Positions 25,275-26,441 of a stretch of DNA of 64,000 nucleotides are shown here, piece by piece. The position numbers and the translations under genes were made by a program. Source of the DNA: Caldicellulosiruptor saccharolyticus DSM 8903 (GTDB lineage: Bacteria; Bacillota; Thermoanaerobacteria; Caldicellulosiruptorales; Caldicellulosiruptoraceae). Numbering within the stretch: the stretch's first letter is position 1; each line of letters opens with the position of its first letter. The DNA lies in assembly GCF_000016545.1 (NCBI RefSeq), contig NC_009437.1, forward strand, positions 1,591,501-1,655,500, written 5' to 3'. The notes beneath the pieces were generated by a model. The model made no database searches. It saw nothing but the letters and a program-made list of their open reading frames with translations, and was not told the DNA's origin.

Positions 25275-25679
25275 ATGAACAATAATTTTTCTCAAGATGA
25301 AAATGCAATTTTCAGACTTATCTTTTCGGACTCCAAAGAGATACTCTTCTTACTGAAAAATGTGGCAAAATTTAGTTGGGTCGACAGGATACAAAAAGAT
25401 TCCATTGAAGTTATTTTAGTAGACTACGATAACGAAAATGTTCTTAAATATAAGCCTGACGTAATAGCTAAAGTAACAATAGAAAACAACACAGCATATA
25501 TTTTCGTCTTTTTTGTAAGTAAAGTTCCAGAATGCGGTATGAGAAACATAATATTAAATAACATGCTGCTTTTCTGGGAGAAAAAGATAAAGGAAGGAAC
25601 AGACAAAATTCCACCAATAATACCCCTTGTATTGTACAATGGCAAAGAAATATGGACTGAACCGAGAGAGATATATTAA
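25275..25679 (+). pseudogene. Truncated Rpn/PD-(D/E)XK-type transposase-like nuclease
   Basis: 134 aa. It contains FRLIFSDSKEILFLLKNVA, YKPDVIAKVTIENNTAYIFVFF and IPLVLYNGKEIWTEP, the N-terminal pattern of the recombination-promoting nuclease (Rpn, PDDEXK) family. Those proteins usually have about 300 residues, so the C-terminal half is missing. After the stop another frame continues briefly (ILKAFESAIEIKQK) into the promoter array, suggesting decay by frameshift and deletion. Confidence 0.55.
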
Positions 25680-25697: not shown

Positions 25698-25790
25698 TTG
25701 AAATAAAACAAAAAATACGATACAATATATTTAAATTCTTTGCCAGAAATACACTTTTTAGGTGTTTATAAAGAATGTCAAATTTTTTTT
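25698..25790 (+). repeat. Promoter plus conserved leader unit 1
   Basis: TTGAAA-17 bp-TACAAT (25698-25726), then TTTGCCA and the conserved block TAGGTGTTTATAAAGAAT, GTCAAA and a T run (25759-25790). Unit 2 begins directly after it. Confidence 0.6.
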
Positions 25791-25791
25791 G

Positions 25792-25885
25792 TTGCAGTTT
25801 TAAAACTGTAGTGGTATAATATACTCAAGAGAATGATTGCCATAAGTGTATGAAATAGGTGTTTATATAGAATGTCAAATTTTTT
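25792..25885 (+). repeat. Promoter plus conserved leader unit 2
   Basis: TTGCAG-17 bp-TATAAT (25792-25820), TTGCCA, then TAGGTGTTTATATAGAAT, GTCAAA and a T run (25856-25882). A hairpin and a 34-aa gene follow. Confidence 0.65.
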
Positions 25886-25900
25886 ACAAAAGTAAAACAA

Positions 25901-25925
25901 AAGGCAGGTAACAACCTGCCCTTTT
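25901..25925 (+). terminator. Hairpin with T-rich tail before the microprotein gene
   Basis: AAGGCAGGT, loop AACA, ACCTGCCCTTTT. It sits between leader unit 2 and the 34-aa gene and may terminate or attenuate. Confidence 0.6.
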
Positions 25926-25949
25926 CTGTAAAAAAGGAGAGTTTGAACA

Positions 25950-26054
25950 ATGCTTGCACATCCACTGGTTGTTGTGTTTCTCATATGGTATATTCCTCTA
26001 ATACTGCTCAAAATATTAGCAGTTTTAAAGGGTGAAGATGATTCGGAATTTTAG
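25950..26054 (+). CDS. Membrane microprotein (34 aa)
   Basis: An ATG preceded by AAAGGAGAGTTTGAACA, the same ribosome-site/box sequence used by the leader-controlled genes upstream. The product is a basic-free hydrophobic helix (PLVVVFLIWYIPLILLKIL) and an acidic tail GEDDSEF. Too short for family recognition. The shared leader and the promoter 130 bp upstream support expression. Confidence 0.45.
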   Translation: MLAHPLVVVFLIWYIPLILLKILAVLKGEDDSEF

Positions 26055-26065
26055 TTAATACCCAG

Positions 26066-26157
26066 TTGATACATTTGTTTGGTTATGATAAAATATAGTC
26101 AAATGGTTGGCAAAACTATACTTTTTAGGTGTTTATACAAAATGTCAAATTTTTTTT
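26066..26157 (+). repeat. Promoter plus conserved leader unit 3
   Basis: TTGATA-17 bp-TAAAAT (26066-26094), TTGGCA, then TAGGTGTTTATACAAAAT, GTCAAA and a T run (26126-26157). Confidence 0.65.
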
Positions 26158-26204
26158 GAAGGGGGTATCTAAAAAGAAGTAAAGGGCACAGCGAAAATGT
26201 GTTT

Positions 26205-26262
26205 GGTTTGTGGGGTATTTGAAAGGGAGAAAGGTAAATACCTTTCTCCCTCCCCACAAACC
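26205..26262. repeat. Long inverted repeat near the island edge
   Basis: Outer arms GGTTTGTGGGG/CCCCACAAACC (11 bp) and inner arms GGGAGAAAGGTA/TACCTTTCTCCC (12 bp) with only 2 nt at the tip. There is no T run, so it is more likely a DNA or RNA structure element than a terminator. Confidence 0.75.
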
Positions 26263-26320
26263 TTCCAGCTGAACAACTCTCATAAGGGGGTGTAACTCCC
26301 GACCATATAGAGATTATATC

Positions 26321-26350
26321 ACAAGTCCATTGCCCGCACAATGGACTTGT
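26321..26350. repeat. 12-bp perfect inverted repeat next to tRNA-Arg
   Basis: ACAAGTCCATTG, CCCGCA, CAATGGACTTGT. It lies 14 bp past the tRNA 3' end, in the position of a tRNA terminator (minus strand) or of an attachment-site arm; no T run follows. Confidence 0.65.
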
Positions 26351-26364
26351 AGCCTAAACCAAAA

Positions 26365-26441
26365 TGGTGCGCCCGAGAGGACTCGAACCTCCGGCACATG
26401 GTTTAGGAAACCATTGCTCTATCCTGCTGAGCTACGGGCGC
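26365..26441 (-). tRNA. tRNA-Arg (anticodon CCU)
   Basis: On the minus strand: acceptor GCGCCCG pairs with CGGGCGC, D arm GCTC...GAGC, anticodon arm ATGGT-TTCCTAA-ACCAT (anticodon CCT), T arm GGAGG-TTCGAGT-CCTCT. CCA is encoded. The 3' end faces the accessory region at lower coordinates, the usual geometry of an integration target. No second copy of the tRNA 3' end was found in the window. Confidence 0.95.

Follow-up and report, generated by a model that had tools for sequence, protein, structure and literature searches.

Results

Gene content and architecture of the locus

The window analysed here is a 64-kb stretch of the Caldicellulosiruptor saccharolyticus genome (positions 1591501–1655500 of 2,970,275 bases). 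Its positions 1–25200 are occupied by a large mobile element with genes for ParA-like and T2SS/pilus-type ATPases, membrane proteins and a transglycosylase/M23 peptidase, and this element ends at tRNA-Arg. Upstream of the units described below, the window encodes an integrase, RecT, a Cas4-like nuclease, RadC and a DUF3854 protein with a primase-type zinc finger; this gene content gives the locus the appearance of an integrated mobile element's end on the tRNA side. No attachment-site repeat of the tRNA 3′ end of at least 14 nt was found within the window, and the other end may lie outside it. A short YhgA-like (Rpn) gene (25275–25679), encoding 134 aa compared with ~320 aa elsewhere, is located immediately 5′ of the first unit described below, and the same short form recurs in loci L046 and L048.

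Three units, each composed of a promoter and a conserved leader core, are located between the Rpn gene and the tRNA (Table 1). The sequence-only reading had described three near-consensus promoters with 17-bp spacers, each followed by the block TAGGTGTTTATAnAnAATGTCAAATTTTTT, and the positions, the spacers and the exact repetition of the block were all confirmed: the three copies at 25759–25788, 25856–25885 and 26126–26155 (+) carry 0 mismatches. A search of the 64 kb allowing 3 mismatches returned just these three matches, compared with 0 in 100 shuffles and 0 expected. The gap between the -10 element and the block is 32 nt in unit 1, 35 nt in unit 2 and 31 nt in unit 3, and TTGCCA/TTGGCA was found in all three units, as had also been claimed. 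The description "near-consensus" is appropriate for units 1 and 3 but generous for unit 2, in which the -35 scores 3/6 only and the -10 is perfect and extended (TGGTATAAT).

Table 1. Features of the three-unit locus (window coordinates)
Feature	Position	Strand	Details
Unit 1 promoter	25698..25726	+	TTGAAA-17-TACAAT, 10/12 match
Unit 1 conserved leader core	25740..25790	+	TTTGCCAGAAATACACTTTTTAGGTGTTTATAAAGAATGTCAAAT and T run
Unit 2 promoter	25792..25820	+	TTGCAG-17-TATAAT, extended -10 TGG; conserved in paralogues
Unit 2 conserved leader core	25838..25886	+	
Intrinsic-terminator-like hairpin after unit 2	25899..25928	+	GGCAGGT-AACA-ACCTGCC and T-rich tail; GGCAGGTAACAACCTGCC and CTTTTCTG at 25903–25928
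34-aa hydrophobic microprotein	25950..26054	+	MLAHPLVVVFLIWYIPLILLKILAVLKGEDDSEF; RBS right after terminator, no promoter between
Unit 3 promoter	26066..26094	+	TTGATA-17-TAAAAT, 10/12 match
Unit 3 conserved leader core	26107..26157	+	
Long hairpin 3′ of unit 3	26204..26264	+	GTTTGTGGGG..GGGAGAAAGG..CCTTTCTCCCTCCCCACAAAC; no T run after; region z -6.3
Near-invariant 64-nt segment, unit 3 to tRNA	26286..26349	+	ends CAAGTCCATTG..CAATGGACTTG
tRNA-Arg(CCT)	26365..26441	-	flanking gene, outside cassette

The 34-aa ORF that unit 2 had been said to precede proved to be real: it is kept in 4 loci, and each of the six pairwise comparisons gives a pN lower than pS, on small counts. Because its RBS lies directly 3′ of the terminator, expression of the microprotein should depend on read-through, which makes the window pair an exception to the stand-alone pattern of the family described below. 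The whole arrangement, from the two-unit array through the terminator and the 34-aa ORF to the third unit, is found again beside tRNA-Trp at L041, in this genome, and at L046 and L048, and unit 3 with the end segment recurs at L050. Both sides of the stem region of the unit 3 hairpin are shortened in genome G008. The 64-nt segment accompanies units next to tRNA-Trp at another site of this genome and in three further genomes, and it is probably the end of the element. The association with the tRNA gene, which had been part of the original description, turned out to be incidental. The majority of copies do not adjoin a tRNA, and the window copy does so because it is located at the tRNA-side end of the integrated element.

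The units belong to a genus-specific family

The window units are members of a sharply bounded, genus-specific family of real cassette copies, termed F1. The sequence-only reading had staked its case on copies in relatives, and a profile built from 51 copies detected 52 full-length copies at 50–71 bits in 10 of the 12 genomes of the genus, below which came two truncated copies (31–33 bits) and practically no further match. This genome has 12 occurrences of the core at up to 3 mismatches. Outside the genus the profile found no copy among 37 genomes of the class, whose other 7 genera gave none, and none was found in plasmids or phages. An exact core match was likewise absent from viral contigs and from genome_contigs, a collection from which the genus itself is seemingly left out. 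Rfam covariance models at or above the gathering threshold matched the tRNA alone in the window and in 15 related loci, a permissive Rfam search gave sub-threshold noise only, and no description of such RNA genes in this genus was found in the literature.

A promoter scoring at least 9/12 at fixed spacing (31–35 nt from -10 to block) was present in 49 of the 54 distinct copies, compared with 2.7% of random sites, and the spacing holds even between copies with dissimilar promoter sequences. Column statistics over 53 copies showed a conserved -10 and a weakly conserved, nearly free promoter spacer. Strong conservation begins at TTGCCA and lasts through the T run (TTGCCAnAARTRYAnYTTTTAGGTGTTTATAnAGARTGTCAAATTTTT), and its variable positions for the most part exchange A with G or C with T. 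This concentration of conservation on the -10 and the core, with a nearly free spacer, speaks for a function rather than for a recent passive duplication. Moreover, every F1 copy has the same orientation and place with respect to the promoter, and none lies upstream of a promoter or inverted to it; the fixed distance and single orientation favour a role as RNA or as initially transcribed region. Many copies form pairs 95 bp apart, and the upstream member of a pair can be told from the downstream one by consistent sequence differences across genomes, indicating that the pairing is old. The copies cluster among mobile and defence islands.

Terminators and tails downstream of the units

An intrinsic terminator was found within 200 nt downstream of 27 of the 41 array-ending units, compared with 35 of 300 random sites (12%). 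The remaining 14, including window unit 3, lack one within that distance, which we counted against a short-RNA cassette. The terminator stems are wholly different among copies (GGCAGGT/ACCTGCC, CCACGGCAA/TTGCCGTGG, CCACGATTGG/CCAGTCGTGG), suggesting that termination is kept and sequence is not. Furthermore, a separate extended -10 precedes the next ORF after 17 of 27 terminated units (background 4.5%). Together, the terminators and the separate -10 of the next gene indicate that the units are best read as self-contained short-RNA cassettes and not as simple leaders. Where a small membrane ORF follows, as in the window and for the 44-aa ORF after units of the F2 family (below), no promoter follows the terminator; this resembles an attenuated leader and was also counted against the cassette.

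The tails are of four types. Type A carries a terminator, CCACGG..CCGTGG or CCACGATTGG..CCAGTCGTGG, at 103–145 nt, followed by surface-protein or HTH-ImmA/IrrE-PIN genes. Type B, found in the window, carries the terminator GGCAGGTnnnnACCTGCC at ~60–66 nt, followed by the 34-aa microprotein; the terminator is kept with an altered loop in L005/L041, L017/L046 and L018/L048. Type C, that of window unit 3, consists of the long hairpin and the conserved end segment before the tRNA, and type D of a ~300-nt conserved element followed by an F2 unit. An operon encoding an XRE-type HTH regulator, an IrrE/ImmA-type peptidase and a PIN-like protein (L040:3831–5489) recurs after F1 pairs in several genomes. 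In L085, L009 and L028, genes after some F2 or F1 units carry CCCCTT..AAGGGG-type repeats that would sequester the RBS, which suggests that translational control may operate as well.

RNA length and folding

The units had been proposed to give RNAs of 55–60 nt with 3′ ends at the T run adjoining the block. This run is conserved, but no hairpin precedes it and so no intrinsic terminator lies there, the core folds near shuffle level (z -1.3 to +1.3), and the run is interrupted in some copies (CAAAAATTT, CAAAGTTTTT); we regard such RNAs as extremely improbable. The ends are predicted instead at hairpins 60–145 nt past the block, giving RNAs of ~100–250 nt, and the hairpin after unit 2 is the predicted 3′ end of both the unit 1 and the unit 2 RNA. 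The suggested pairing of TTGCCA with TGTCAAA was not borne out, since RNAalifold gave 0 consensus pairs over 51 copies and no covariation in the F1 core. The same absence of consensus pairs in the conserved region speaks against a riboswitch-like structured leader, which was rejected. Duplex energies between the unit RNA and the neighbouring microprotein mRNA were no better than those of shuffles, and no RNA target of the F1 units was found.

A second family, F2, and neighbouring features

A second family of units, F2, has a promoter, a core (GTCTACARAAATGTAAAAATA) and a terminator, with ~50 copies in the genus (e.g. L007:1217, L014, L084 and L085). F2 has its architecture and its islands in common with F1 and is present in genomes G001 and G003, both of which lack F1. 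Profile alignment did not establish homology between the F1 and F2 cores (p 0.03, rising to 0.08 when blocks were shuffled, in a different register). The genes downstream of F2 units include toxin-antitoxin genes, YhgA-like (Rpn) genes and a 44-aa membrane ORF, the last abutting an F1 pair. This 44-aa peptide family (MPKRPxRFCIxKELQ..LLLPEVILF..; L007:1300–1434, L014, L019, L024 and L036) is encoded between the F2 terminator and the F1 pair, with pN 0.14 vs pS 0.29. No Pfam match was obtained for either the 34-aa or the 44-aa peptide.

A conserved, structured-looking intergenic element of ~300 nt (AGCTCGAAAGCC..GGCTTTCGAGC..TTTGTAAACGATT) is located 5′ of F2 in L036, L004, L019, L022, L084, L085 and L087, and has no Rfam match; in L087 it lies directly 3′ of a transposon-type zinc-finger ORF. 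In addition, L045:4752–6188 encodes one protein in which RnlA (RNase LS) toxin domains are found together with an RNase H domain and an RNase H1 N-terminal domain. RnlA is known to have RNase HI as its partner.

Discussion

As the sequence-only reading had it, each unit joins a promoter to a leader and would be either a short-RNA gene or a regulatory leader. By sequence, the units comprise a promoter, a conserved core, terminators, separate downstream promoters and genus-wide copies in mobile and defence islands. We infer that RNAs are made, that they end as predicted, and that the conserved single-stranded 5′ region may be the functional part, binding a target or a protein. With a probability of about 0.5, each F1 unit would be a self-contained short-RNA transcription cassette, usually with an intrinsic terminator. 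Transcription would start at a sigma-A-type promoter, the ~50-nt conserved unstructured 5′ region would begin 10–15 nt after the start site, and an intrinsic terminator, usually 60–145 nt past the block, would yield a discrete RNA of ~100–180 nt, or of ~195–250 nt when the upstream promoter of a tandem pair is used. For the window, nested 3′-coterminal RNAs of ~195 and ~100 nt ending at ~25927 are predicted from units 1 and 2; some transcripts would read through the terminator and allow expression of the 34-aa membrane microprotein, and the unit 3 RNA would run on into the long hairpin near the end of the element.

Multicopy sRNA families are known in bacteria, such as the streptococcal csRNAs, Listeria LhrC and Vibrio Qrr. 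F1 resembles these families in having several near-identical predicted intergenic RNA genes with a promoter, a single-stranded region and an intrinsic terminator, some in tandem, and the combination expected of multicopy trans-acting sRNAs, an own promoter (49/54) with an intrinsic terminator (27/41 vs 12% at random), is present. It differs from them in lacking an Rfam sequence match, in its restriction to a single genus and in its location in mobile and defence islands. As in type I toxin-antitoxin systems, the short-RNA cassettes adjoin a small hydrophobic peptide gene, and the 34-aa candidate appears to be under selection (pN < pS, small counts); however, RNA and peptide gene lie on the same strand with no antisense overlap. 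Antisense pairing with the peptide mRNA was rejected on these grounds and because duplex energies fell within the shuffle range. Repeated RNA units followed by a terminator and a small gene also recall type III (ToxIN-like) systems, from which F1 differs in having an own promoter per repeat, a 95-bp period and a downstream 34-aa hydrophobic peptide in place of a ToxN-type RNase. A ToxN/CptN/TenpN endoribonuclease was rejected, as neither the 34-aa nor the 44-aa peptide has a Pfam match. The order of promoter, short leader with a possible tiny ORF, terminator and gene is that of transcription attenuators and leader-peptide leaders, but the gene after most F1 copies has a promoter of its own, and support for the switch pairing is weak.

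A rival reading is a cis-acting attenuator, in which promoter, leader and terminator would set read-through into the next gene, the microprotein gene in the window; leader UUGCC could pair with GGCA of the terminator 5′ arm as antiterminator, possibly switched by a ribosome at a tiny ORF (A/GTG TCA AAT TTT). At each of the four window-type loci, the RBS of the microprotein comes after the terminator and no promoter separates the two, and the 44-aa membrane ORFs after F2 units are arranged likewise. In 19 of 26 modules the leader 4-mer has a Watson-Crick partner further downstream, and the pair takes the variant forms TACC-GGTA and TCCC-GGGA in some of them (permutation p 0.02–0.09; 0.03, or 0.09 with duplicates collapsed), but this pairing is a post hoc observation, and a general pairing test showed no covariation (p 0.6). 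An SD AGGTG with an A/GTG start is present in 51 of 52 copies, and the tiny ORF encodes a heptapeptide in 22 of them (e.g. MSNFLQK/VSNFLDE), with TTA/CTA/CTG and TAA/TAG changes, some synonymous-looking; against this, its length ranges from 5 to 50 codons among copies and the SD-start spacing is long. Taking into account also the own -10 at 17 of 27 downstream genes, we consider attenuation rather unlikely.

The core could also be a DNA operator that binds a regulator just 3′ of the promoter, by roadblock or repression, for example the XRE repressor of a mobile element with its ImmA/IrrE protease. Such a site would fit the fixed distance and the length of the conserved block, which has no gaps, the three RTGT-like steps spaced 13 bp apart within F1 and the presence of some units before HTH-ImmA/IrrE-PIN operons, but the invariant orientation and position of every copy, none upstream of or inverted to the promoter, and the absence of the RTGT-like step from F2 make it quite unlikely. 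The XRE version was rejected, as the HTH operon has its own promoter region and GTTAAC-type repeats unrelated to the core. A reading in which the leader has no role and promoter-bearing intergenic DNA is passively copied when islands recombine would account for the clustering in islands, the frequent 95-bp pairs and the long flanks common within subtypes; it is very unlikely, given that the same core at the same spacing occurs among different, unalignable promoter spacers and tails and is far more conserved than its surroundings. A broader proposal, which we hold to be unlikely, is that F1 and F2 are genus-specific RNA cassettes bracketing and controlling the same-strand 34-aa and 44-aa peptide genes and the neighbouring toxin-antitoxin genes by a new mechanism, either as RNA-controlled peptide toxins without antisense overlap or through a processive antitermination signal.

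As far as the literature consulted shows, the F1 cassettes are undescribed, ordinary in kind and unusual in their copy number and in their link to mobile and defence islands and to tiny membrane peptides. Two conserved tiny membrane peptides, probably unannotated there, are added to these genomes. If the RNAs are made, genomes of this thermophilic genus would each carry as many as about a dozen short-RNA genes of nearly identical sequence, and a similar second set besides; the link of all of them to mobile, toxin-antitoxin and surface-protein islands would offer a handle on the joint silencing or switching of these islands.
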